64,000 bases of DNA, taken from Erythroxylum novogranatense (lineage: Eukaryota > Streptophyta > Magnoliopsida > Malpighiales > Erythroxylaceae). The stretch is from the NCBI GenBank assembly GCA_029891385.1, contig CM057234.1, forward strand, positions 20,446,350-20,510,349, written 5' to 3'. The notes beneath the pieces were generated by a model. The model searched no databases. It was not told where the DNA came from and saw only the letters and a list, made by a program, of their open reading frames with translations. Of the stretch, positions 7,634-60,883 are shown one piece after another (positions within the stretch are counted from its first letter, which is position 1; every line of letters begins with the position of its first letter). Both the position numbers and the translations under genes were made by a program.

Positions 7634-8051
7634 CTCACTGAGTTCGCAAACTCACCCAAAATTGCAACCTATTTTTCAGGATCGAGTGGTGATAGTTCCG
7701 AGAGGCGTAGAGCCGCGTAGATCAGATTGGCGAGAGAGGCTATGGCTCAAAGGTCGGTCAGCTGGGATTTCTTTTGAGATGACCTAGTTAGGACTGCTAT
7801 TTTTTTCTTGTTGTATATAGTGTTCAGAGTGATGTACAGACATGAGAACACTAACAGTTGTATAAATTACTGAGTTTGATGAAATGAAATGGATCACAGT
7901 TTGGTTTTAAAAAGTTTAAATTTCATATTACTGTTTTATTATTGTGATGCCATGTGGAGTTTAGAGTTGTTTGTCTGTAGTTCTCTCTTATCGTAGGATA
8001 TGTACCGGAATGACCTACGGGTGTTCCGATGGGTACTCTACGGTAAGGGGA

Positions 8052-8085
8052 TGCTACAGGATAAGTCGTGCTACAGGATAAGTCC
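8052..8085 (+). repeat. 17-bp tandem duplication at the element junction
   Basis: TGCTACAGGATAAGTCG (8052-8068) is followed directly by TGCTACAGGATAAGTCC (8069-8085). The first copy spans the chromovirus LTR end; the second runs into the Athila-like coding sequence. Confidence 0.9.
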
Positions 8086-9451
8086 AACATTTTGTATGGA
8101 TCGGTTAAATTTGGAGGAAGATGCAAAGCCAGTTCGGGAACATCAAAGAAATCTCAACCCGAATATGAAGGAGGTCGTGAAGAAAGAAGTGCTTAAACTT
8201 CTAGCTGCAGGAATTATCTATCCGACTTACGATGGTACATGGGTAAGCTCGATCCATTGTGTCCCTAAAAAGGGAGGTATGATAGTGGTAAGAAATGATA
8301 ATAATGAGCTGATTCCAACTAGAACTATAACAGGTTGGCGTGTGTGTATAGATTACAGGAAATTAAATAAAGCAACACGTAAGGATCATTTCCCTTTACC
8401 CTTTATTGATCAAATGTTAGAGAGGTTAGCTAATCATGATTACTTCTATTATTTGGATGGTTATTCTGGTTTCTTCCCAATTCCTATTCACCCTAATGAT
8501 CAAGAAAAAACATCATTTACATGCCCTTACGGTACCTTTGCTTATCGAAGGATGTCGTTTGGTCTGTGTAATGCCCCAGCTACCTTTCAAAGGTGCATGA
8601 TGGCAATCTTTTCTGATTTTATTGAGGAAATTATGGAAGTTTTCATGGATGATTTTTCAGTATATGGGGTTTCATTTGACTCATGTTTATCTAACCTTGT
8701 CAAAGTTTTGAGCAGGTGTGAAGAAGTGAACCTTGTATTAAACTGGGAAAAGTGCCAATTTATAGTGCAAGAAGGCATAGTACTTGGTCATCTTTTTTCT
8801 AATCGAGGAATTGAGGTAGACAAGGCTAAAACTGAAGTGATATCAAATTTGCCTCCACCTACCTCGGTTAAGGAAGTTAGATGTTTTTTAGGGCATGCTG
8901 GTTTTTATAGAAGATTTATCAAAGATTTTTCTAAAATAGCTAAGCCTTTGACAAATATATTGAATACTGATGTCCCTTTTGTGATTGATGATGCCTTTTT
9001 GAATTCTTTTCGCAGGTTAAAAGAAACCTTAATTTCTGCTCCAATTCTTCAACCTCCGGATTGGTCTTTACCATTTGAAATTATGTGTGACGCCTCTGAT
9101 TTTGCTGTAGGAGCTGTGCTTGGACAAAGAAAGGATAAAGTAGTTCATGATATCTATTATGCAAGTAAAACACTCAATGATGCACAATTGCACTATGCGA
9201 CTACTAAAAAGGAGCTCCTAGCTGTGGTGTTTGCAGTGGACAAGTTTAGGTCCTACATAGTTAGTTCCAAAGTAGTTGTCTATTCAGATCATGTCGCTAT
9301 TAGGTACCTACTTGCAAAGAAAGAAGCTAAACCAAGGCTAATACGGTGGATACTTCTCCTTCAAGAATCTGATTTGGAGATAAAAGACAAGAAGGGGGCA
9401 GAGAACGTGGTTGTAGATCATCTATCGAGGCTTTCAAACTCAACTCATTAA
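8078..9451 (+). pseudogene. Athila-like reverse transcriptase and RNase H, open frame
   Basis: The frame is open for about 458 codons. It starts in the RT approach region ([18 protein letters not shown]) and shows [41 protein letters not shown], the catalytic [10 protein letters not shown] (FMDD, as is usual in Athila), and [12 protein letters not shown]. RNase H follows with [42 protein letters not shown] and VVDHLSRL, so all its acidic catalytic positions look present. An ATG at 8000 lies in the neighbouring LTR and is not a real start. The protein is a fragment because protease and gag are absent. Its upstream edge is the 17-bp duplication. Confidence 0.9.
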
Positions 9452-14368: not shown

Positions 14369-16432
14369 ACCATCGATACGATTTCAATAGTCAATTTGAG
14401 CCCAATTTCATTTTTTACCCTTTTTCAATAACAAAACAATCTACTCTGGGCCATTAGGGCCCATTTCAAAACACAAAACACATATAATCACTTCCAATTG
14501 GCAATCAATATACACATTCATATTCACATTTCTAAAATCCCCATACTTTGTCACTTATTACACCGAAACATTCAATTATACACTGTACAGAATTCGATGA
14601 ATACATGTGATACAGAAATAAGACATATCCTAATGCAGACGCGAACTAATCCCGACCCCTAACCTTCCTCTGTGTGTAATAAGTCTACTCCCGTTGCAGA
14701 ACGGGTACTCTTCTGAATCCTGAAAAAAATATATGCAAATTTTGGGTGAGTTTTGCGAACTCAGTCAGTGACCATCATCGATGGTTCACCCAGTCACCCA
14801 ACATATAATTCAAATAATGTGACTCATTATCAACATATGGCATCACATATATTCGATCAATCATTTCACATCACTCTTATTCGATCCATGTCATTTGCAT
14901 CATTGCAAGAGCAACCATATTATATCACATACATGTGATCAATCACTTCACATAAGCATATTGTTTTGTGCCCTATACACTGTATCATTCATATAATCCT
15001 TATGCAATGCACATACAATTCACTTTTCAACATAATTTCACATGCCCATGCAATACAATTCCTTATGCCTATTCAATACTATTCCATATTCCCATTCAAT
15101 ACAATTCATATGCCCGTTCAATGCAAGTTCACATTCCCATTCAATGCAGGTTCACATTCCCATTCAGTGCAATTAAATCAGTCATATCATGCATACATAT
15201 GTTCATGAGACCTAATTTCTATTTATTTCTTCGTTGTGATCGAGTGCCTAAACTGTCCCGTATCCATTGGATATCGGGCTCATTGATAACTGTCTCGCGT
15301 GGGGCTCATTGTAAACTGTCCCATATAGGGCTCATTGAACGTTGAGCCTGAGGCTCTGAATCACTTATGAGCTCGAAGCTCATTTTCATTCGTTGAGCTT
15401 TAAGCTCGATCATTAGCTCCTCGATCACAACGAGCTATATTTAGTGCATTCATGAAATGAAATGCATTGTTCGCATTGTATGCACTTGTTCAATCACAAT
15501 CATGAATCATCGGACCATAGTCCCAAGATTCAACATATAGTTGCAGAATCACATTTTCACTTGTATGCATATGCAGAAACACTTAATAACTTCAATACAC
15601 TTAGTTCGGCCAGTTCACATTCAAGTAACACTTCAATATCACACTTACCAGTATACAATCATCGGACCTCCTGTCCGGAACCCATATTCAATCCCAATCA
15701 ATAAAATCAATCCATGTTCATTTAATTTATAACAAAAGCAATAAACCAATAAATAAGACCATCTAGGTCTACTCACAGTACGCTCCAGTTAGCATTTGCT
15801 TTGATGATCCGGAAACGTCTGGATGAGGACGTTCTATCCTGTATCATCCATATACAAAACACAATTTGCACACACATTAACAAAAGCACAATTTTATAGC
15901 CATCCCATTTTCACAAGTGTATATGTGCAATATATCATGCATGCTCAATGACAATCCCGGGTATTTACTAAAAACTTACACTGTATGCCCATTCTCTACT
16001 CATAATTCAATAGTCTAAGTTTTACACTTCATTTTCATATGATCATGTTCAATAAATGCATATTTGACTCTTTAAGAGTCTAGCATATCCCTAAGCTTGT
16101 ATCTCAAGAACATTTGCCCATTTGTATCATAATTAAATTTTCCATCATTCATTTTCCAATCCCATATGATCGCATAAGATCCAATTCCCTTCCATAAATA
16201 ATCATTGAACACCTATTACTTACCTTCCTTAAATAGCATTACAAGTATATAAGCATTTTCACCTCCAATCCACTTATGCATTTGACACTTTGATTTCATC
16301 CATTTATTCTCTAAGTTTTATCCTTCAATTTCACTTCAAACCTTTCATATATTAGTCCCATAAACCAAGGATCATTCTAGGTTCACTTTAAAACCCATTT
16401 GAGGCTTAATTAGTATCATTTGTCCAGTGAAT

Positions 16433-20242: not shown

Positions 20243-22685
20243 TGTAGCATCCCACTTCCGCATGACCCGAACCCGACATCGACGGTGATATCCGAGTCCG
20301 TGCCCGCGAAGGTAGCATGCTAGAACAATCAAACACCCATAAACCGGTATAAATTTTTTTTTAACACTCACATTCCAATGTGGGCCATATACAATTAACA
20401 GTCGCAATAATAAACTTGTTTTCAAACAGTACCATCGATACGATTTCAATAGTCAATTTGAGCCCAATTTCATTTTTTTACCCTTTTTCAATAACAAAAC
20501 AATCTACTCTGGGCCATTAGGGCCCATTTCAAAACACAAAACACATATAATCACTTCCAATTGGCAATCAATATACACATTCATATTCACATTTCTAAAA
20601 TCCCCATACTTTGTCACTTATTACATCGAAACATTCAATTATACACTGTACAGAATTCGATGAATACATGTGATACAGAAATAAGACATATCCTAATGTA
20701 GACGTGAACTGATCCCGACCCCTAACTTTCCTCTCGTGTGTAATAAGTCTACTCCCGTTGCGTAAGCAGGTACTCTTACGAATCTGAAAAAATATATGCA
20801 AATTTTGGGTGAGTTTTGCGAACTCAGTCAGTGACCATCATCGATGGTTCACCCAGTCACCCAACATATAATTCAAATAATGTGACTCATTATCAACATA
20901 TGGCATCACATATATTCGATCAATCATTTCACATTCACTCTTATTCGATCCATGTCATTTGCATCATTGCAAGAGCAACCATATTATATCACATACATGT
21001 GATCAATCACTTCACATAAGCATATTGTTTTGTGCCCTATACACTGTATCATTCATATAATCCTTATGCAATGCACATACAATTCACTTTTCAACATAAT
21101 TTCACATGCCCATGCAATACAATTCCTTATGCCCATTCAATACTATTCCATATTCCCATTCAATACAATTCATATTCCCGTTCAATGCAAGTTCACATTC
21201 CCATTCAATGCAGGTTCACATTCCCATTCAGTGCAATTAAATCAGCCATATCATGCATACATATGTTCATGAGACCTAATTTCCATTTATTTCTTTGTTG
21301 TGATCGAGTGCCTAAACTGTCCCGTATCTATTGGATATCAGGCTCATTGATAACTGTCTCGCGTGGGGCTCATTGTAAACTGTCCCATATAGGGCTCATT
21401 GAACGTTGAGCCTGAGGTTCTGAATCACTTATGAGTTCGAAGCTCATTTTCATTCGTTGAGCTTTAAGCTCTTATCATTGGCTCCTCTGATCACAACGAG
21501 CTATATTTCGTGCATTCATGAAATGAAATGCATTGTTCGCATTTGTATGCACTTGTTCAATCACAATCAATGAATCATCGGACCATAGTCCGGCATTCAA
21601 CATATAGTTGCAGAATCACATTTTCACTTGTATGCATATGCAGAAACACTTAATCACTTCAATACACTTAGTTCGGCCAGTTCACATTCAAGTAACACTT
21701 CAATATCACACTTACCAGTATACAATCATCGGACCTCCTGTCCGGAATCCATATTCAATCCCAATCAATAAAATCAATCCATGTTCATTTAATTTATAAC
21801 AAAAGCAATATACCAATAAATAAGACCATCTAGGTCTACTCACAGTACGCTCCAGTTAGCATTTGCTTTGATGATCCGGAAACGTCTGGATGAGGACGTT
21901 CTATCCTGTATCATCCATATACAAAACACAATTTGCACACACATTAACAAAAGCACAATTGTATAGCCATCCCATTTTCACAAGTGTATATGTGCAATAT
22001 ATCATGCATGCTCAATGACAATCCCGGGTATTTACTAAACACTTACACTGTATGCCCATTCTCTACTCATAATTCAATAGTCTAAGTTTTACACTTCATT
22101 TTCATATGATCATGTTCAATAAATGCACATTTGACTCTTTAAGAGTCTAGCATATCCTTAAGCTTGTATCTCAAGAACATTTTCCCATTTGTATCATAAT
22201 TAAATTTTCCATCATTCATTTTCCAATCCCATATGATCGCATAAGATCCAATTCCCTTCCATAAATAATCATTGAACACCTATTACTTACCTTCCTTGAA
22301 TAGCATTACAAGTATATAAGCATTTTCATCTCCAATCCACTTATGCATTTGACACTTTGATTTCATCCATTTATTCTCTAAGTTTTATCCTTCAATTTCA
22401 CTTCAAACCTTTCATATATTAGTCCCATAAACCAAGGATCATTCTAGGTTCACTTTAAAACCCATTTGAGGCTTAATTAGTATCATTTGTCCAGTGAATG
22501 TCCGTTAAACGGACATGAGTCATTCAAAGTTTTCCAATTCACCCGAAGCTGTCCGTTAAACGGACTCCCATGTCCGCTTTTGCGGACACGATCTTCATAC
22601 CCTCTTCAAATTTTTAGGGTTCTAAGCTCACATGCACCAAATTTTTAGGGTGTCAAGCCTTTCGTAGGGAGACCGGGATATTACA
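20243..22685 (-). repeat. 5' LTR of the LARD-like element
   Basis: The uninterrupted copy is 2443 bp, from TGTAGCATCCC to GGGATATTACA on the plus strand. It serves as the reference that exposes the insertion in the other LTR. The third hairpin of its GTCCG cluster (22572-22587) is GTCCGC-TTTT-GCGGAC, different from the left LTR but still able to pair. Confidence 0.9.
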
Positions 22686-46565: not shown

Positions 46566-47512
46566 TTCCGTAGGTAAAAAGGCAGGAATTATTAGCGATA
46601 TAAATTTTTTTTGAGTTTAACTACGGAAATTTTCGTTGGTAATTTCGTCGGTAAATTTTTTTTAAATATAAACTCAGCCGACATCTCCCTCCCACTTGTG
46701 TCTTCTTCTTCCTTCTTCCTACATCTTCTCTTCGATTTTCTTGGAGTCCATTTCTCTGTTGTGGACTTCTTTTCTGCTCGATGGCATTGTCTTCTTCGAC
46801 TATTGTCATCTGTCCTTCGGTAGAGGTATTTTTTCAACTACTGTCATGTATTTTTTCATATATTAGATGAAAGCTAATTTAGGTATTTATTACTTTCGTT
46901 TATTTGTTTATTTTATTATTGGAAAACAACTTTAAGGTATAAATGTTAGTGATAGAAGGGACAAGACGTGATTTTAGTTGTGATATTGAGATAAATTTTT
47001 GATGCATGTAATGTGTTTGATGAAATGTTTGTTATTTGAAAAAATGATTTAAGTTCTTTATTTTCAGTTTTTTTTAGTATGAAGTTCAATATTTTAATTC
47101 TTTTACTTGAAATAATGAAGTTCCCTCCGTGGTGGCTTCTAGAGAAACTAAACACTTTGCAGATAAATTTTAAAAAATAGTTTTCAGCAAATTTACCGAT
47201 GAAAAAAAATTCCATTGGTAAAATATATTGGATTTACCGACAGAATTACAAAATCTGTTGGTAATTTTATGACAAAAGAATTTACTGTTTAAACAAAATA
47301 ATCATCGGTAAATTTACCGACGAAAATTTTTACCGTCGATAATTCCGTCAGTAAATTTACCAATAGAAAATTTACGTCGTTAAATTTACTAACGACCATA
47401 TCTCCAACGTCTTTTTTCTTCAATAAATTCCGTCATTAAATAAGCTTACCGACGGAATATATACAAATTTCATCGATAAATTTCGTCGCTAAACTCTATT
47501 TTTCTTGTAGTG
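46566..47512. mobile_element. CACTA transposon remnant, one end
   Basis: Words such as CGTCGGTAAATTT and ACCGACGGA are repeated in both directions, and the tract ends TTTCTTGTAGTG at 47512, the canonical CACTA terminus. The facing CACTACAAGAAA end is not found; the tract simply meets LTR B near 46566. The middle (46680-46830) is a C/T-rich block with frames on both strands and no known domain. The right flank is copia RT sequence. Confidence 0.72.
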
Positions 47513-48475: not shown

Positions 48476-49421
48476 AAGAAAAAGGAGATTACTCATCAAT
48501 TGCACAACACTAGAGAAAAAGAAAAAAAATTAGGGTTTCGAATTTCAGAAATTGACCACGAATTGAAAGATTAAGTGAGGGCTTTTGAAGGAGGGAAGAA
48601 CGTGAAGAAAAACAGATGATTCTTCAAAAATCAACACTCAAACGCTTTAGATCAAAGAACACAGAAGGGGTAAAAGAGGAGAAGTCTAAATCCTACGAAG
48701 AGAAGAAGAAAATGACTCTTGAAAGTTCTAAAGGAGTTGTCTGAAGTCATTAACTCACCTATGCCACTTATGTTCCAGACACACGTGAGGCGCACTATGC
48801 ATAGCCACAACGTAGCACTTCATTTGGAAATATATTAAAGTGTGATTGAAGATTTTAAAGGAACAAAGGCAAAGGCTTTTCAAGTGAATCACGTGGACAA
48901 ATGCATGCACATTCATGGACCCAGTCAAAGGTTTGTGAGAAAGAACAAGATAATTAAATATAGTCTTTAATTAAAGTCACGTGGACAAGGCAAGCATATG
49001 TTAACTCAGTCCAATACATCTGAAGGTAACAGATCAACTACAATAATTATAAATAGCCAAGTCTCAAGCATTCAGACATAAGAGAAAATACCAATATACA
49101 ATCAATTCATTGAGTTTACATTCTGTAATTCAAGTAAGGAAATAGTGAGTGCTAGAGTGCATTACAGTGGGTACTAGAGAGTTTTTGGGAAAAACTCTTG
49201 CAGGTGTTTTAAACACTCAATCTCTTGTACTTTTTTTCCTTGATCTTAGTAAAAATCTAGTGTGTGTGTGATTGGCCTTTGGACGTAGATAGTTTTGTAC
49301 TATCGAACCAAGTAAACTCTGTGCATTTTCTTTACTTTCTTGCAGGTTTTCCATCTTTGCAAATCAAGTCCAAGCAAATCATCATCAGATCAGAAAGTAT
49401 TAGACAAAAATAATAGAAAGG
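48476..49421 (+). repeat. Downstream region and 3' LTR of the plus-strand copia
   Basis: AAAGAAAAAGGAGATT at 48476-48491 is a likely purine tract. The right half (49250-49421) has the phrase ATTGGCCTTTGGACGTAGAT and a Cys/Thr-poor A-rich end typical of copia LTRs. The LTR appears to finish with ATTCTAACA at 52773-52781, beyond the CACTA insertion. The LTR start was not found; a boundary near 48740 is possible. No gene is seen. Confidence 0.55.
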
Positions 49422-49699
49422 CACTACAAAAAATTAATATAATTTACGACGTTTTATTAAAAAAACGTCACAAATTATAAAACCTTTTTGCGACGTTTAA
49501 AAAACGTCACAAAAAGTGTGAAAGTTTTGCGACATTTTAGTCAAACGTCACTAATTTATAACACTTTTTTCGACGTTTTATCGTTAAAACGTTCCAGAAT
49601 AGAATTTTGGATGTTTTGTTAAGTAAAACGTCGTTAAACCTTTAGCAACATTGTTTGGTTTTAAACCAAATTGAAAGTCACCTTTACATTTCCCTTTGT

Positions 49700-50045
49700 T
49701 CCGTCAGAAGAAAGAACTCGCCATCTTCAACTGCCAACTACGAGAGCCCGACGGCCTACAAGCAAAGATCCCTCCCAATCTGATTCATCGGACACAGAGG
49801 CATGTGGCTGATGATAACCGCAGTGAACCTGATGACAGTGGGAGGATGGTTGAGGCGGAGGAGTAGTCTGGTAAGCGAAAGGGTGGAGAGAATTCGCCGA
49901 TAATTATCGCATATAGTCTCGGGTTGAACCATATTCAGACCCAATCTGCTCCGTCTCCTTCTCCTCTTGGTTTGGTCACGCCTTGCAAGTTTGAGAATGA
50001 TGACGATTTTCGTGAAGAGTATCTCAACCCTAACCCTAACCCTTG
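49700..50045 (+). other. Captured sequence of unknown origin in the CACTA element
   Basis: GC content is higher than in the surroundings. One frame gives IPPNLIHRTQRHVADDNRSEP, then GKRKGGENSPI and a Pro/Ser-rich stretch, interrupted by TAG. It looks like exonic sequence, possibly a 5' exon, but no family was recognised. A short AACCCTAACCCTAACCC tract is at 50026-50042. Confidence 0.4.
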
Positions 50046-50105
50046 ATTTCAATCAGAACATAACACAAGCAGTACCTCAAAAACTTGCTTCATTTAATTC
50101 TTGTT

Positions 50106-50276
50106 TTTAACACATACTAGAATGTGTAGGCTCGGTGGAGCAAGAGTCAATCTACGAGACCCTGAAAGATCACGGGTTGCCCATTGGTCTATTGCCAAAG
50201 GGCATAAGGGAATTTTTCGTTGACGATACTGGTGCGTTGTTAGATGAAAGTTGGCTAAGAAGCTATAAATGTACAC
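50106..50276 (+). pseudogene. Captured DUF538 gene fragment
   Basis: The plus strand encodes SVEQESIYETLKDHGLPIGL followed by LPKGIREFFVDDTGALLDES. The phrase Y-L-x-x-HGLPIGLLPKG with a following F/DD segment is the N-terminal signature of plant DUF538 proteins, a secreted or cytosolic family of unknown function. Only about 55 residues are present, and there is no proper start. Confidence 0.8.
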
Positions 50277-51011
50277 AGACGATCACTGAAATTGTATAAT
50301 ACTATCATTGAATGAAATCTCAGTTTTTCACTGAGTTCTTACCTCCTCTGTTCGACTCTATTTTTATATCGTTTCTCACACTAGTTTTCTCTCTCTACGT
50401 TTTCTGCTTCTTAGTCGTTTGTTTGTGTATGGTTGATCGATAATAACAACACATTTCTAGGAAAAGAATGCACACAGATAAACCTCATTTTGATGGTGAT
50501 TTTTTATATATAAGATTCTCTCTTTTGGGTTCTCTTTTTGAAAGATTCCCTCTTTTCAATGCTTAATCTTTTAGTTTGATTTGGAAATTCAATTTATCAT
50601 TCAACAGTTGTTGCTGCTTATTAATATACAATTGTCTAATGGCCCTTCACTTTGTTGACATTGACGACAACTTTGGCATGATGAAAGCTTGCGAAAATGG
50701 GTGAAATAATGGCACCATTATCATGTCTTTATGTGGTACCCTGCTTTGAGGAGTTACTGGAAGAGTAGAAACTAGGTCCAATTTTGATTGGCTTGACTTC
50801 GTAAAGTTATTTGCTTCTTCCTTTCTTTTTTTATTCTTTGTTCTATCTTTTCGGGTGAAGGGGCTCTTAAGTGCACAATCCAGACACATGAACTTTTGTT
50901 CATATTCATAAACAGTGACTGTGCATCATGGAAATTGTGAAATTGCATATCAACCTATTTAGTTAATAACATTACATTGTATATCTAAGTGAATCATGGT
51001 TCTTCTGCAGA

Positions 51012-51405
51012 TATGTTCCTTGCCCTTGATAAAGATATGAATGGAACATTGAGCAAGCAAGAGCTTCGAGAATATGCTGATGGAACACTGACAAACATTT
51101 CTGTGTTTGTGTTGCTTTTTCTTGTGATTATTCATCATCTTTTTGCTTGCATTACATTATTGAACATACCAATTGAATTTCTGGTTCTGACAATATGTTA
51201 ATTCAAATCATTATATGTTGGACACAGTACTATGATGTTGTGCTTTCCTCAGGTGCTTGATTTTCTTTTTTTACACTTTTGGAGATGTCTCCCCTTCAGT
51301 TTTGTTTTCTTATTTCATTATTTTCATTTCATTCCCAAATTAGTATTCGATGAACATGTTCGTCGTGGAAAAAATGGGGGAGGAAATTCTCGGGAGGATT
51401 GACAT
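51012..51405 (+). pseudogene. Captured TON2/FASS-type PP2A B'' subunit fragment, two exons
   Basis: A splice acceptor TTCTTCTGCAG ends at 51011. The exon after it encodes DMFLALDKDMNGTLSKQELR then EYADGTL, the calcium-binding EF-hand region of the TON2-type regulatory subunit, which positions microtubule arrays before division. Intron-like sequence follows to the acceptor ...AAATTAG at 51343, then FDEHVRRGKNGGGNSRE, the next exon in the same family. The first exon loses similarity after about 51095 and the second at about 51400. Introns are kept, so genomic DNA and not mRNA was captured. Confidence 0.88.
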
Positions 51406-51500
51406 ATTTATTTCGATGTCTTGATCTTCATGGGTGAGGATTCCTTACAACAGCCGATATCCACTCAATTTTAATTGTAACTGAATAAGCTTAATAGCTA

Positions 51501-51597
51501 AGGGAAAAATGGATAGAAGAAGAGCATCATAAATTCCTTAAAGCTCTAAAGCTCTATGGTTGTGGCTGGCATAAAAGAAGAAGAGCATTCGAAATAG
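51501..51597 (+). pseudogene. Captured LHY/CCA1/REVEILLE-type MYB exon
   Basis: REKWIEEEHHKFLKALKLYG, then CGW, matches the first half of the single SHAQKYF-class MYB repeat of clock factors (RERWTEEEH-x-KFLEALKLYG). A donor GTGAGT follows at 51598 at about the usual exon end, and the last third is frameshifted. Twenty-three codons are clear. The rest of the domain is absent. Confidence 0.8.
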
Positions 51598-51815
51598 GTG
51601 AGTACATAATTCATTTACAAATATTTATTAAATGAGACTGTGTATCTAATTAATTTTTAATTTTTCAAGAATTAATGTGTAAGGAATTTAACTGTTTGCT
51701 TAACGTAATATGTATTGGTCTGACGTGGCTTGCTCTGTGTCTTTTACTTTTCATGAATTAATGTTGTTAAGGTATAACATGTCTGTATAATGTAACAAGC
51801 CTTTGCTTCTTTCAA

Positions 51816-52005
51816 GATGCAGACAAAATAACAGAGGCATCAAAGAGGGAAAAGGAAGATATTTTAGTCAAGCTTACACAAACTGAAAGGACGCTTGCAG
51901 ATTCAAGAAACAGAGTAAATAAGTTAGAGGAAGACAATAGAAAACTTCGCATGCCAAGACTTAATAAAATGTCCGTGGACTTCGATTATTTAGTAAACTT
52001 AATAG
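51816..52005 (+). pseudogene. Captured GRAB-domain golgin fragment
   Basis: The frame encodes a coiled coil (TQTERTLADSRNRVNKLEED then NRKLR) followed by RLNKMSVDFDYLV, close to the RLNRMSVDSDxLVD phrase that begins the GRIP-related ARF-binding region of plant golgin candidates 3/4. Those proteins tether vesicles at the Golgi. A residue gap before RLNK and a later stop show that it is a broken piece. Confidence 0.75.
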
Positions 52006-52781
52006 ATACAAGAATGTTTATGTTCTTATATTAGTATCTTGATCAATGACTCGATATTTGGGTTGCCTTAATTTGGTCCCTCCATTTTTTTTCCAAAATA
52101 TCAAATGTTTCATCCTTTAGTTTTGATATTAATCGATGTATTATGTCTTGTGTGTGAATTGTAATTAAATAATACATGAATAATTATTAAAATTAATGAT
52201 ATATTAAAAACTAAAGAATTATTAAATAAAATTCATAAATAATATTGAATAGTTATTAAACAAATAATATTTAAAAATCGTTATTTTAAAAATTATTAAA
52301 TTTGAAAATTATTAAATTTAAATTATTTTGAAAAATAAATTTAAATTATTTTTGAAAAATAAAAAATTAATAATTGAAAGAAAATAACTCTAAAAACGTC
52401 ACAAAAGACAATCCGTGACGTTTTTAAAAACGTCACAAAAGACATTTTGTAATGTTTCCAAAAAAACGTCGCGAATTCCCTTACATTTTGTGACGTTTTA
52501 AAAACATCGCGGAATGTTAGACAATCTACGACGTTTTTTATAAACGACGTGGAATGTGTACACTTTTAGTGACGTTTTTATAAGCGTCGCAGAATGTGCA
52601 AACTTTTAGTGACGTTTTACATAAAACGTCGCGGAAAGCTTTTATCTACACCACATTCCGCGACGTTTTTTGCGCATTTTTTAAAACATCGCAGAATACA
52701 TTCTGCGACGTTTTTTGGACATTTTGTGACTTTTTAAAAACGTCGCAGAATGATTCTTTTCTTGTAGTGAGGATTCTAACA

Positions 52782-54747: not shown

Positions 54748-56034
54748 TCAAGGTTGAGAAACATCATCATGTTGACAGCCTAATTTGTCGAAAATCTTGG
54801 TAAGCATACGGTGTTGTGCATTAATCTTCTTTATAAATGCACGGAACATATTCTGAATATCATCGACACGATCATTCAAATCATCTATTTGTTCGGTAAT
54901 CTCATGTAGCTCTTCATGAGTGACATCACTTCGTCTTACATTACTGGGCCTAGAGCTACTCGGACGATCTACTGCCTGCTTTGATCTTTGCCTCCTAGGA
55001 CCTTGTTCATCTTCCAATGTCAACCCAAGTTTGGCCACATGATCAAAATATACCCAACCTTTCTCAACCGTTTTGACCAATTTCATACTCCTCAAATTAT
55101 AGGGTGTAAACCTCCAACTTTGAGGATATGGAGAATGAATATAGGAACTCAAATTAACCTTTTGCAGCTTGGCTATAAATGGAATCAAGGCAGCATATGG
55201 CATGCCTTTATGCTTTCCCGTGTTACTTTTCAGCTCACCTCTTAATAAATTTGCCTTCTTCCTCATCATTTGCATAATCAGACTAGGAAAATTAATTTTT
55301 CTACCTTCCTCCAAGTGCCCCAAAATTTCCTTGTCCAATGATGTAATGTGGTTGTTACTAGCTTTCTTAGGATATACCACTCTATTGATAGCATAGTGAA
55401 GCAACCTATAATTTAGAGGCAAATCTATGGCCTCATACGGTGGTGAGGAATGAGCCGAACAAAGGCTATCTAGCAGTGCATCTCCCTTTTCTTCAGTATA
55501 TCCAAAATTTTCATCCGCTTCCTCGTCAGTATCTCCATTTTCATGTCGTAAAATATTAAAATCCAATAAGGAAGCTCTAGGCCGAATTCCACCCGTAGGC
55601 AATTTTAACCAAATGGACAGATTTTCCTTGCAAATAAAAATTTCCTTACCTTGAATACTTGATTTCAAGATAACCCCACGATCAACATCACTTCTAACCA
55701 CAATCAGATTTGCATAAAATTCTCTAATAAATTCTTCATAGATATCATCAGAAAAACCCAGAAAAAATCTCAAGCCTAAGCTATGTAGTTCCTCAAACAA
55801 CATCTTATACTCACTATTATCTAATTCCGTCCAATCAAACTTCATAGAAGGAATTAGAACTTCATTTTTCAATACCTTATAATACAGATTTTGCGCCTCC
55901 TTTGAAACAAATCTAGACTCAACTTCTTCATTTTCGCGTTCTACTCTACCCCGTGAAGAAGATCCACGTACTCTTGGTCCTTGTGGTGTGTCATCCACTT
56001 GTTTCCCTTTTCCAGAAGTCTTCCTTGGAGCCAT
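54748..56034 (-). CDS. Retroelement extra ORF, putative plant transposon protein-like
   Basis: The ORF is intact, with 428 residues from MAPRKTSGKGKQ; an ATG nine codons upstream (56061) is less likely. The N-terminus (about 1-35) is basic and Ser/Arg-rich. The body begins RFVSKEAQNLYYKVLKNEVL, has EEFIREFYANLIVVRSDV and GKEIFICKENLSIWLKLP, which resembles the plant family annotated as putative plant transposon protein (REFYANL plus a G-x-x-I/V-x-F/I pattern), then an acidic linker and an alpha-rich half. The C-terminus (HEELHEITEQIDDLNDRVDD onward) should form a coiled coil. It lies in sense, 686 bp past the pol stop, where SIRE elements carry an envelope-like ORF, yet no membrane segment or signal peptide is visible. 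A nuclear or structural role is possible. The function is unknown. Confidence 0.8.
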   Translation of the reverse strand: MAPRKTSGKGKQVDDTPQGPRVRGSSSRGRVERENEEVESRFVSKEAQNLYYKVLKNEVLIPSMKFDWTELDNSEYKMLFEELHSLGLRFFLGFSDDIYEEFIREFYANLIVVRSDVDRGVILKSSIQGKEIFICKENLSIWLKLPTGGIRPRASLLDFNILRHENGDTDEEADENFGYTEEKGDALLDSLCSAHSSPPYEAIDLPLNYRLLHYAINRVVYPKKASNNHITSLDKEILGHLEEGRKINFPSLIMQMMRKKANLLRGELKSNTGKHKGMPYAALIPFIAKLQKVNLSSYIHSPYPQSWRFTPYNLRSMKLVKTVEKGWVYFDHVAKLGLTLEDEQGPRRQRSKQAVDRPSSSRPSNVRRSDVTHEELHEITEQIDDLNDRVDDIQNMFRAFIKKINAQHRMLTKIFDKLGCQHDDVSQP

Positions 56035-56719
56035 TGTAATGTTCCTGAATAAAAATCGCAAATCTACGAAGTTAGGGTAGAAGACGATTTTGAATGGGAG
56101 ATGGAGGAGAGATGAAGACGATTTGGTGAAATAGAAGGGGGTTTCGACGTTTTGGCTCTGGGTAAGTGATTGAAGGGTCGGATCTGAAGAGATTTTGAAG
56201 ATTCAGTCGACTGGAGAACAAAAAATCGCAAAAGGAGAAGTGAGTGGGTTTGCGTAAAAACAAGAAGAAATGGGTTTTTAGTGAGAGAAAGAGATGAGAT
56301 GCTTAAAGAAGAAGAAGATATGATGCTATTGTTGAAGAAAGTGTGATTCTCCAAGGAATGAGAGGCTTAGTCGAGTGAGAGGGCTTTAGGTAGAAGATGA
56401 AGAACTTTTGAAATAAAGAAAAGAATGGGTTTTCGATATGTTTTAAAAACGAAACCTCCGTGTATTTTCCAGTCGACTGGACTTGCTTCTGGTCGACTGA
56501 TACATGCTTTTCTTTATTTCTAGTTGACTTGTCATGCCCTTCTAGTCGACTGGTACGTCTATTTACCTCAAAATCAGTCGACTTAAACTCTAATCAGTCT
56601 ACTGAAAAATTCTAAACCTTAATGCAGTCACTAAATGTAAATCATGATGATGTATCTCCGATGGAATTGTTTAATTTGCCAGACCATTTTGATATAATAG
56701 TGTATGCAAGTAAAAAAAA
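56035..56719 (-). other. Spacer between copia pol and the extra ORF
   Basis: This would be the leader of the extra ORF. A 96-codon Ser-rich frame at 56064-56354 has no recognised domain. CAGTCGACT-type words recur at 56471-56605, the same word as in the LTR arrays. No splice site could be fixed. Confidence 0.55.
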
Positions 56720-59700
56720 TCAACCAAGAGAGTTTAAATCATACATTCCAAGTTTTAATTTAATGTTTATGAAAACATCTTCTTTAAGAGGCTTAGTAAA
56801 AATATCAGCCAATTGATCACTAGACGAAACATGTTTTAAAACAATGTCACCTTTCAAACAATGATCACGAATAAAATGATGTCTAATTTCAATGTGTTTT
56901 GTTCTACTGTGCAAAATTGGATTTTTACTTAAACAAATTGCACTTGTATTATCACAATAAATTGGAATATTTTTAATCACAATACCATAATCAAGTAATT
57001 GATGTTTAAGCCAAATAACTTGGGCACATGCACTTCCAGCTGCTACATATTCAGATTCAGCAGTGGAAATAGCTACACTTACTTGTTTCTTACTAGCCCA
57101 AGAAATCAAAGATGATCCTAAGAAATGACAGACACCACTAGTACTTTTTCTATCAATTCTACAACCACCATAGTCAGCATCACTATATGCATATAAATCA
57201 AAAGAATCACAACAAGGATACCATAATCCATGATTAACAGTTTTACTCAAATATCTAAAAATTCTTTTGCAAGCAGTCAAGTGAGAAATTTTAGGACAAG
57301 ATTGAAATTTAGCACATAGACATGTAGCAAACATTATATCTGGTCTAGAAGCAGTTAAATATAAAAGAGAGCCGATCATACCTCTATAGAGTTTTTGATC
57401 AACATCCTCTTCATGTTCAGATTTTTCCAAGACCAAATTTGATGCCATTGGAGTAGCTGCTACTTTACATCCATCCATGTTGAATTTCTTTAAAAGCTCT
57501 TTAGTGTATTTGGATTGATGAATAAAAATTCCATCTCTATTTTGCTTTATTTGCAATCCAAGAAAGAATTTAAGCTCGCCCATCATGCTCATTTCGAACT
57601 CACTTTGCATTAAATTACTAAATTCTTTACACAAGGATTCATTAGTAGCACCAAAAACAATATCATCAACAGATATTTGGCAAATTAACAGATCTTGATT
57701 AACATGCTTTATAAATAAAGTATTATCAACTTTACCTCTAACATAACCATTTTGAATAAGAAAATTACTTAACCTTTCATACTATGCCCTTGGTGCTTGC
57801 TTTAATCCATAAAGTACCTTCTTTAGCTTGTAAACATAATCTGGATGTTCATGGTCTTCAAAGCCAGGTGGTTGTTTGACATATACCTCCTCTTGGATGT
57901 AGCCATTGAGAAATGCACTCTTGACATCCATTTGATTCAACTTAATCCTTTTATGTGAAGCAAATGCACATAATAATCTGATCGCCTCTAATCTTGCCAC
58001 TGGTGCAAATGTCTCATTATAGTCAAGTCCTTCTTCTTGATAAAAGCCTTGAGCTACTAATCTTGACTTGTTTTTGACTGCTTCACCATTCTCATCATAT
58101 TTTATCCTATTTACCCATTTGACTCCAATGATGGTTTTATCCTTTGGTGGAGCTACTAAATCCCACACATTATTCCTCTTGAATTGATTCAATTCGTCTT
58201 GCATAGCCAACAACCAATTTTCATCTTCAAGAGCTTCTTTAATGTTCTTGGGTTCTACCAGTGAAATAAAAGCTGAGTTATTCATATATTAAATGCGTAT
58301 TCCTCCTAGTCCTTAAACCATCATTTAAACCACCAATGACTTGCTCCATAGGATGATTCTTTGCTTTTGCCCATGTTTTCATGATAGGTACATGATCTTC
58401 TTCATCTTGTTTTTCTTCATCATTTGATTTTTCTTCAACTTCATTTTCTATATTACCTGCATCATCATCAAAACAAACCTTCCTCGGGGGTGAAACCATA
58501 TCATTGAATTTAACATGAATATTTTCTTCAACAGTTCTAGTTCTATTATTATAGACTCTAAATGCTTTACTAGTGAGTGAATAACAAAGAAATATACCAA
58601 TATCAAATTTTGAATCAAATTTACCTAAATTATTCTTTCCATTATTATGAATAAATACTTTACAACCAAAAGGATGAAAATAAGAAATATTTGGTTTCTT
58701 ACCTTTCCATAGCTCATAAGGTGTCTTGTTTTTGTCTCTTCTCAGATGTACTCTATTTATCACATAGCACGCAGTATTTATTGCTTCCGCCCAAAAGACT
58801 TTAGGAAGGTTATATTCATTCAGCATCGTTCTACTCGTCTCTTCAAGAGACCGATTTTTCCTTTCTACTACACCGTTTTATTGCGGAGTCCTTCGTGTTC
58901 CATCCCATATTTTTCACAAAGCCTTTCAAACGATTCACAATCAAACTCTCCTCCGTGGTCAGTTCTTATTGCAACAATAGTCAAATTCTTTTCATTTTGT
59001 ACCAACCTACACCACTTAGTAAACTCGTTAAAAGCATCACTTTTATGAGCAAGAAATCTCACCCAAGTAAATCTGGAAAAATCATCTACTATTACCAGTA
59101 CATATAATTTACCACTAAGACTAGCATGCCTAGATGGTCCAATCAAATCCATATGAACAAGTTCTAAAATTCTAGATGTACAAATTTCTTTCTTTGGTTT
59201 GAATGATTCTCTAATATGTTTACCTTTCAAACATGATTCACACAAATGATCTTTAACAAATTTTATTTTAGGCAATCCTCTCACTATATCATTTTTAGAC
59301 AATTTAGAAATCAAAGGCAATAGAGCATGTCCTAATTTTCTATGCCATAAAAATGCATTTTCTTCTAATGTCACTAAACACTTTTCATTAAAAGAACTAT
59401 CATCATGTAGATCAACAACATATGTATTTCCATGCCTCAAACCAATGAATGCAATATTTTCATCTTTCTTAACTACACAATGAGATGATTCAAATGACAC
59501 TTTAAAGTTCATATCACACAATTGTGAAACACTTAGCAAGTTATGTTTCAGTCCATCAACAAGTAAAACATTATCAATGGTAGCCAAAGGTTCCTTACCC
59601 ACTTTACCAATCTCAATGATTTTACCTTTATTGTTGTCTCCAAATGTCACATACCCTTGATTCTTTGGTTTGATTTCTGCAAACAAGTTTTTGTCTCCAC

Positions 59701-59740
59701 TCATATGCCTTGAACATCCACTGTCAATATACCATGTACT
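56720..59740 (-). pseudogene. Copia pol: protease, integrase, RT and RNase H, broken
   Basis: Protease has TWYIDSGCSRHMSG (DSG, about 59735). Integrase follows with LWHRKLGH...CESCLKGK zinc ligands, then MDLIGPSRH and IRTDHGGEF, two catalytic Asp. A small deletion near 58895 and TAA for CAA at 58878-58880 break it just before the Glu segment (VVERKNR). An open frame 58826-58278 carries the integrase end. A shift at about 58280 leads to the RT (WLLAMQDELNQFKRNNVW, VKWVNRIKY, LDYNETFAPVARLEAIR). TAG replaces a Trp codon at 57782-57784. The catalytic YVDD reads SVDD (57662-57673). RNase H is open (AYSDADYGGC, STAESEYVA, EIRHHFIRD), with a natural stop at 56720. Confidence 0.9.
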
Positions 59741-60883
59741 TGGTGGATTATCATTCCTTGCTTGTACCTCATCCTCATCATCACTTGTCATGGAGCTTCT
59801 TGCCATTAGAGCTAAGTTGTTCTCATCATTGCTTTGATAAGCTTCCTCATCATCGCTCCAAGTAGCTATAAGACTAGCTTTCTTTTTACCTTTGTCATAC
59901 CTATCATTTTTCTGGAAAATGGAAGAACTTTTGCATTCCCTAGCATGATGTCCTTTCTTTCCACATTTCCAACATTCTTCATTGCTCTTTTTCTCCTCAT
60001 AACTTTTGGTCCTTCTTTCCATGGTGGACTTCTTCTTTTCGTCATTTCTTCCACCACGTAATTCTCTTTTCCTATTTTTGAGTAGTCCCTTGAATTTTCT
60101 CAAGTTTCTAGCATACATTGCTAACTCTTCATCTTCTTCCTCCTCATCTAATTCTTCATCACTTTCATCCATAGAAGAAGTGTTAGCTTTAAAAGCAATA
60201 GATTTTTTTGGCTTACCTCTACCTCCTCTTGATTTGAGGATTATCTCATAATTTATGAGTGATCCCACCAACGCATTGAATTCCAAGCGATTGAGATCTT
60301 TCGACTCCATAATTGCTGTGACTTGAGAGTCCCATTCTTTTGATAGTGACCGAAGGATCTTTTTCACCTTCTCGCTATCCGTCATGTGCTTTTCGAGATT
60401 CCCTAAATCATTAATAATTTCTGCAAAACGATCAAGCATAGTAGAAATAGACTCACTTTCCTTCATAACAAACATTTCGTAATCATGAAGTAGCATTTTG
60501 ATTTTGGTTTCTCGAACTTGGTTGGTTCCTTCATGAGTGATCCGAAGCCTCTCTCACATTTCTTGAGCACTTGTGCAAGAATTCACTCTATTTCTGTCCT
60601 CAACAGTAATAGCGCAATAGATTAACTTCATTGCTTTGGCATTTATGTAGGCTTGCTTCCAATCATGCTCGTCATACTTCAGCTCCGTTTTTACCTGACC
60701 GTTTTCGTTCAATGGAACATGTGGACCGAAGATGATGATCTTCCAGTACTCTACTCCCTCGCTTATGATATGGTACTTCATAGGATTTTTTCACGAAGAA
60801 TAGTTAGAACCATTAAACAAAGGAGGACGGTTATTAGTGTTACCTTCTTCCGCCAGATTGTTATGTGTCATACTGAACGCCAT
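59741..60883 (-). pseudogene. Copia gag, UBN2-type with CCHC knuckle, broken
   Basis: It starts MAFSMTHNNLAEEG at 60883, only 15 bp past the primer site. Two TGA codons stand where Trp is expected (60791-60793 and 60554-60556), so the start is cut off from the open frame that follows. The capsid-like domain (MLDRFAEIINDLGNLEK, KILRSLSKEW) and the knuckle CWKCGKKGHHAREC (59974-59933) are clear. Gag coats element RNA in virus-like particles. An acidic run of Glu/Asp precedes the knuckle. Confidence 0.88.

Follow-up and report, generated by a model that had tools for sequence, protein, structure and literature searches.

A Pack-CACTA transposon family of Erythroxylum novogranatense whose load of gene pieces was very probably built stepwise

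How does a single DNA transposon come to carry pieces of several unrelated host genes? The gathering of unlinked gene pieces by DNA transposons is still debated, and a locus in Erythroxylum novogranatense, a source of coca, raises the question anew. We analyzed a window of 64,000 nucleotides (C11:20446350-20510349 of a 1.30-Gb assembly), in which a sequence-only reading had described one CACTA transposon with serially captured fragments of four unrelated plant genes. We find that the element is a Pack-CACTA, with host gene pieces between CACTA ends and a cargo that is present at several genomic sites. Its load was very probably assembled stepwise (features are listed in Table 1).

The element begins with CACTACAA and finishes with TTGTAGTG, which form a CACTA terminal inverted repeat. 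These ends and the AGG target site duplications lie exactly where the sequence-only reading had put them, and subterminal repeats are present at both ends. No open reading frame longer than 98 amino acids is contained wholly within the window copy, which is transposase-less and hence non-autonomous. When the two flanks were joined with a single AGG, their left part matched 17 other places (all 19 candidates scored). At 15 of the 17, which lack the element, the match crosses the joint by at least 7 bases and stops 7-18 bases past it, and eight of the 17 form four pairs spaced 4.8-5.3 kb; the remainder of the right flank has no match elsewhere among the 19 candidates. Because related places without the element read across the joint and occur in such pairs, the element seems to have inserted near the edge of a long terminal repeat (LTR)-like sequence, related copies of which show this edge uninterrupted.

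Our genome searches for the cargo scored the best candidates (40 of 1327 for TON2, 40 of 470 for MYB and 58 of 3962 for golgin), so that copy numbers are lower bounds and absences are weak; all candidates were scored for IREH1/DUF538 (17 of 17), ankyrin (11 of 11) and the joined flanks. Read from 5′ to 3′, the window copy contains pieces of an IREH1/IRE kinase gene, a DUF538 gene, an LTR-like scrap, a gene with a VARLMGL motif, TON2, a SHAQKYF-class MYB gene and golgin candidate 4. The DUF538, TON2, MYB and golgin motifs recognized earlier are real, although a count of four genes is too low: the IREH1/IRE and VARLMGL pieces had been missed, as had the LTR-like scrap. Taken alone, each of the four fragments scores below the curated cut-off (E = 7.5e-5 for DUF538, 6.5e-5 for the TON2 EF-hand and 3.2e-4 for MYB), and sources could be found for DUF538, TON2 and golgin. 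The DUF538 source encodes a full DUF538 protein (E = 7.3e-33), proteins named TON2 share up to 97% identity with an exon of the TON2 source, and the golgin piece is 86% identical to an exon of a gene at C12:67938722-67944738, with its best protein match in P0119 from Erythroxylum novogranatense. The exon that follows the IREH1 source region belongs to the IREH1/IRE-like N-terminal family, of which the member P0051 is matched by the window piece itself (E = 8.7e-5). The VARLMGL piece has a sole further scored match outside the element family, at C12:31844917 (best 40 of 74 candidates); the analysis itself yields the VARLMGL motif, and we take the gene to be TRM/LONGIFOLIA-like.

Five of the six gene pieces in the window copy could be assigned to unlinked source loci (C10:89.5 Mb, C12:19.2 Mb, C12:31.8 Mb, C5:135.4 Mb and C12:67.9 Mb). 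This search for parent genes, which had been proposed along with the idea of serial capture, supports that idea. As a chance control, we compared the six source loci with 30 shuffles of the cargo and obtained at most 38.1 bits; the true IREH1 piece scored 420 bits. TON2 was not seen outside the family and its source among the scored matches. The MYB piece has a different record: its nearest other place (C4:13246354-13246655) is itself a broken copy located ∼600 bp ahead of a golgin piece, and its intron part recurs, with 91-96% identity, at no fewer than 33 non-family places, so that it probably arrived through other repeats. The evidence reaches as far as the SHAQKYF class, and the narrower label LHY/REVEILLE exceeds it. 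We rejected the LTR-like scrap as gene sequence, because, of the 31 scored matches that it has beyond the family (best 40 of 74 candidates), 14 form seven pairs 4.4-4.5 kb apart, in the fashion of LTRs. We also dropped as a signal the position of the TRM-like piece beside TON2, presumably its partner in a known complex, since one pair among few pieces is no evidence.

Table 1. Features of the element and its borders, in window coordinates
Feature	Coordinates	Strand	Observation
Left target site duplication, AGG	49419..49421	.	
Whole non-autonomous CACTA element	49422..52769	.	3348 bp; ends, sister copies, places without insertion
5′ subterminal repeats, GACGTT/AACGTC type	49440..49640	.	
IREH1/IRE-type kinase gene piece	49714..50019	+	91% to C10:89516503-89516812
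DUF538 gene piece (blocks 50032-50097 and 50114-50238)	50032..50238	+	97% and 92% to C12:19169 kb
Deletion scar, GTTAG	50239..50243	.	∼745 bp of L016 gone from the window copy (more DUF538 and the ankyrin-gene piece)
LTR-like scrap	50244..50449	.	76-87% to 31 scored places
VARLMGL-motif gene piece (5′ exon end and intron)	50452..50691	+	92.5% to C12:31844917-31845155
TON2 (PP2A B'') gene piece with introns	50693..51472	+	93-96% to C5:135443954-135445150; 53-bp exonic deletion
Second deletion scar, ATTT	51097..51100	.	∼640 bp of L016 gone (TON2 exon end and intron, and a further 268-bp stretch)
MYB (SHAQKYF class) exon piece (51496-51581) and intron piece (51592-51688)	51496..51688	+	
Golgin candidate 4 exon piece with flanks	51739..52082	+	source exon C12:67943360-67943641
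3′ subterminal repeats, GACGTT/AACGTC type	52392..52760	.	
Right target site duplication, AGG	52770..52772	.	

The cargo has moved to several sites. We located a family of at least nine copies at six sites, namely the window copy and eight sisters (C6:31.2 Mb, C12:7.6 Mb, C12:56.0 Mb, C8:91.0 Mb and four at C5:110.5-110.6 Mb), which are 92-98% alike in long blocks and have the same 5′ end and different 3-bp duplications. These match at both ends of the element at four sites (ACT/ACT at C6 and at C12:7.6 Mb, CTA at C5, AGG in the window), with one end readable in each of the C12:56.0 Mb and C8 copies. Comparison of cargo between copies, which had likewise been suggested, also supports serial capture, since the subsets found in sisters and older relatives overlap or are nested. 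Most or all of the IREH1 piece is found in seven of the eight sisters, a nearly whole VARLMGL piece in six, MYB in six, and golgin and some TON2 sequence in all eight. All eight also contain at least part of an ankyrin-repeat block (the first 77 bases only in one C5 copy), which is absent from the window copy; its closest other copy (C10:91446883, 91%) does not resemble a whole gene. The ankyrin repeats are what our analysis identifies, and the gene is presumably XBAT-like. The window copy has lost two internal blocks at short repeats, the first of them including the ankyrin piece.

We considered local hopping as the origin of the four C5 copies and set it aside. With 97.9-99.0% identity among their 5′ flanks and the CTA duplication at each, one insertion in a duplicated stretch is the better reading. 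The stretch at C5:110.49-110.60 Mb is present four times with the same CACTA insertion in each; in two of the four, ∼7.5 kb or more lies within the golgin piece, at element position ∼2384.

Older relatives carry parts of the load. In three of them (L042 on C4, L043 at C6:76.6 Mb and L044 on C9), a single alignable block spans the 5′ end and the IREH1-DUF538 junction, and all three lack the ankyrin piece. Two DUF538 deletions are common to L042 and L043, the two in which they were checked. The C9 element (L044 together with L073) is complete, with an AAT/AAT duplication, and we saw no TON2 or golgin match in it. L042 continues (positions 2612-2764; C4:20.39 Mb) into a HAD-hydrolase piece, another captured gene, which we take to be P-type copper ATPase-like. 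The opposite end of the load has a distribution of its own. Among the scored matches, the golgin piece is present at no fewer than 35 places that belong neither to the family nor to the source gene (for example, L075-L093), and 22 places from the TON2 search also match the stretch after golgin, one of which (L048) was read to the 3′ end. All 19 fetched outside golgin pieces have an 18-bp deletion and a 3′ cut identical to those of the window copy, which fits a single golgin capture. End-adjacent cargo is hence common to other elements, and inner cargo was seen in the family only, among the scored matches. Within the family, DUF538 source bases 1818-1954 are replaced by the ankyrin piece, which looks like the result of repair with a foreign template. 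Given older relatives with IREH1 and DUF538 in which TON2 was not seen, and golgin at 35 outside places, the load appears to have been assembled in steps.

Distance to the source was tried as a capture clock and dropped, as the ranges within the family overlap (4.4-8.4% for TON2, 6.8-9.4% for IREH1 and 6.7-10.8% for the first DUF538 block); the order of capture rests on presence and absence in relatives. The window copy differs from its sources by 5.1 and 6.3% (TON2), 6.7% (DUF538) and 7.5% (IREH1 and VARLMGL), and TON2 blocks differ by 0.8-6.1% between family copies. The terminal regions (49422-49701 and 52391-52769) diverge more than the cargo, with 16.4% compared with 9.1% to L042, and 14.6% compared with 5.6% to L048. 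At the 3′ end, 27 of the 55 differences touch CG, perhaps driven by methylation.

We thus favor a history of stepwise assembly. An older subfamily has IREH1 and DUF538 behind its 5′ end, other elements have golgin ahead of a similar 3′ end, and the window family combines both, separated by ankyrin, VARLMGL, TON2 and MYB pieces. Template switching during break or gap repair seems to have brought in at least some of the inner DNA, because the pieces abut with few bases between them, terminal-repeat words are lacking internally and ankyrin replaces part of DUF538. The element would have been moved by a transposase made elsewhere, and would now be a decaying passenger that is probably silenced and makes no product. 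Several points weigh against this history: the distances to source do not order the captures, the inner VARLMGL piece of the window copy is as distant from its source as IREH1, the nearest places for the ankyrin and MYB pieces (L070 and L068) look like partial copies, and fusion of neighboring elements would also join two end types and place new DNA inside.

Such fusion is the most serious competitor. In the published Pack-TYPE model (PMC8903248, PMC13317346), two neighboring CACTA insertions with compatible ends move as one together with the intervening DNA, and internal ends are lost; the element would be a Pack-CACTA all the same. The element resembles L042-L044 in its left part and L048 in its right part, as expected after one event of this kind. 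However, none of the six subterminal words searched starts between 49628 and 52394, the pieces abut closely at the four junctions displayed, several source loci would demand several fusions, and the ankyrin piece replaces DUF538 sequence instead of being added to it. We regard growth of the cargo by fusion as possible, though not as the likelier course.

The orientation of the pieces bears on the same question. As claimed from the start, all pieces lie on one strand: none of the six source loci compared, of which five belong to window pieces and one to the ankyrin piece of the sisters, gave an antisense match to the element, and the MYB frame is on the plus strand. All seven kinds of gene piece in the family face one way, an outcome expected in 1 of 64 cases if orientations were independent. 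With the shared end cargo, the family-only inner cargo and at least one piece swapped in, the family could be a readable record of how a multi-gene load is built, in which capture would proceed by template switching in break repair with an orientation filter and not only by neighbor fusion. We offer this wider proposal tentatively and consider it rather unlikely in its entirety.

A uniform sense orientation would also suit a chimeric spliced transcript or protein. In soybean, the CACTA element Tgm-Express1 contains five unrelated gene fragments and gives spliced chimeric transcripts from within a flavanone 3-hydroxylase intron (PMC1947982). Splice sites had been described as kept, and this holds for the first TON2 acceptor, which lies inside a 140-base stretch identical to the source. 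The window copy has lost the donor of that TON2 exon by a deletion, and capture of the golgin piece left its donor behind. At the golgin acceptor, the window copy and 14 others of 30 aligned read CAAG where the source has CAGG. The IREH1 piece has an in-frame stop, the DUF538 piece lacks the start region and has deletions, and the TON2 piece has a deletion. The golgin exon is free of indels and stops in 24 of the 30 aligned copies (19 fetched and 11 others), a set drawn from the best matches and biased to intact copies. Among unique changes, 62 of 87 are nonsynonymous compared with 65.0 expected (P = 0.26, omega ∼0.84), stop changes number 2 compared with 3.6 expected (P = 0.29), and the change rate is 0.48 per site in the exon and 0.35 in the flanks. 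We thus rejected protein constraint on the golgin piece: its codons drift neutrally, with no sign of purifying selection. No host gene was identified around the element either, and a chimeric product appears improbable.

Still less probable is a trans-acting silencer, in which 21-24-nucleotide RNAs from the element or its sisters would lower expression of TON2, IREH1, DUF538 or golgin. The element has exact 21-base words in common with its sources (225 for TON2, 59 for DUF538, 43 for golgin, 29 for IREH1 and 27 for the VARLMGL gene), so that small RNAs could in principle act on the source genes. However, sense orientation alone gives no antisense RNA, the TON2 overlap is partly intronic, and in so retrotransposon-rich a stretch one would simply expect the element itself to be silenced. 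That old fragments merely resemble one element, as the Gypsy- and Copia-type frames of the window might suggest, is already refuted by the sister copies, with their identical 5′ end and common junctions at sites with differing target duplications, and by the empty-site reading.

The rest of the window is rich in such Gypsy- and Copia-type frames, with reverse transcriptase at 262-849 and 7997-9451 and Copia-type frames at 56720-60553. Beside the latter, an open frame of 484 amino acids (54751-56202, minus strand) shows a weak likeness to ‘Putative plant transposon protein’, with an E value of 4.2e-10 that falls short of the curated cut-off. A lone TTTCTTGTAGTG at 47501-47512 resembles a CACTA 3′ end, and no plus-strand CACTACAA occurs between 29098 and 47500. 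Arrays of an identical 23-bp unit are found at 15026-15174 and 21090-21238, ∼6 kb apart and perhaps within a pair of long repeats.

Elements of this kind are already known; the present case contributes its piece count and a history that can be read in part. A literature search on transposable elements and the genome assembly of Erythroxylum novogranatense yielded a single paper, which concerned flax. Like our element, Tgm-Express1 combines CACTA ends with several unrelated host gene pieces whose exons and introns are kept as genomic DNA (PMC1947982). It lies within an expressed gene, in an intron, and splicing places its pieces in transcripts, whereas the present element has six gene pieces, with seven kinds counted over the family, and no identified host gene around it. 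The Pack-CACTAs of Arabidopsis, maize and rice share CACTACAA ends, the lack of a transposase and gene pieces from several loci (PMC8903248); here, relatives with part of the load additionally permit a partial order, and one piece replaces earlier cargo. Pack-MULEs are likewise non-autonomous transposons with captured host gene pieces, but belong to another superfamily, the present family having CACTA ends and 3-bp duplications. Chenopodium CACTA elements contain host gene fragments as well, though each from a single host gene (Neprosin or AP2) and with transposase-associated domains kept, according to the compared part of that report (PMC8978399). For maize CACTA elements with gene fragments, the compared text does not describe internal order or history (PMC2773423).

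For annotation of this genome, the family is a warning: IREH1, TON2 and golgin pieces in such copies are not genes. A family within one genome that combines identifiable sources, relatives with part of the load and clean junctions makes the two routes to a multi-gene load, neighbor fusion and template switching during repair, testable through the junctions themselves.

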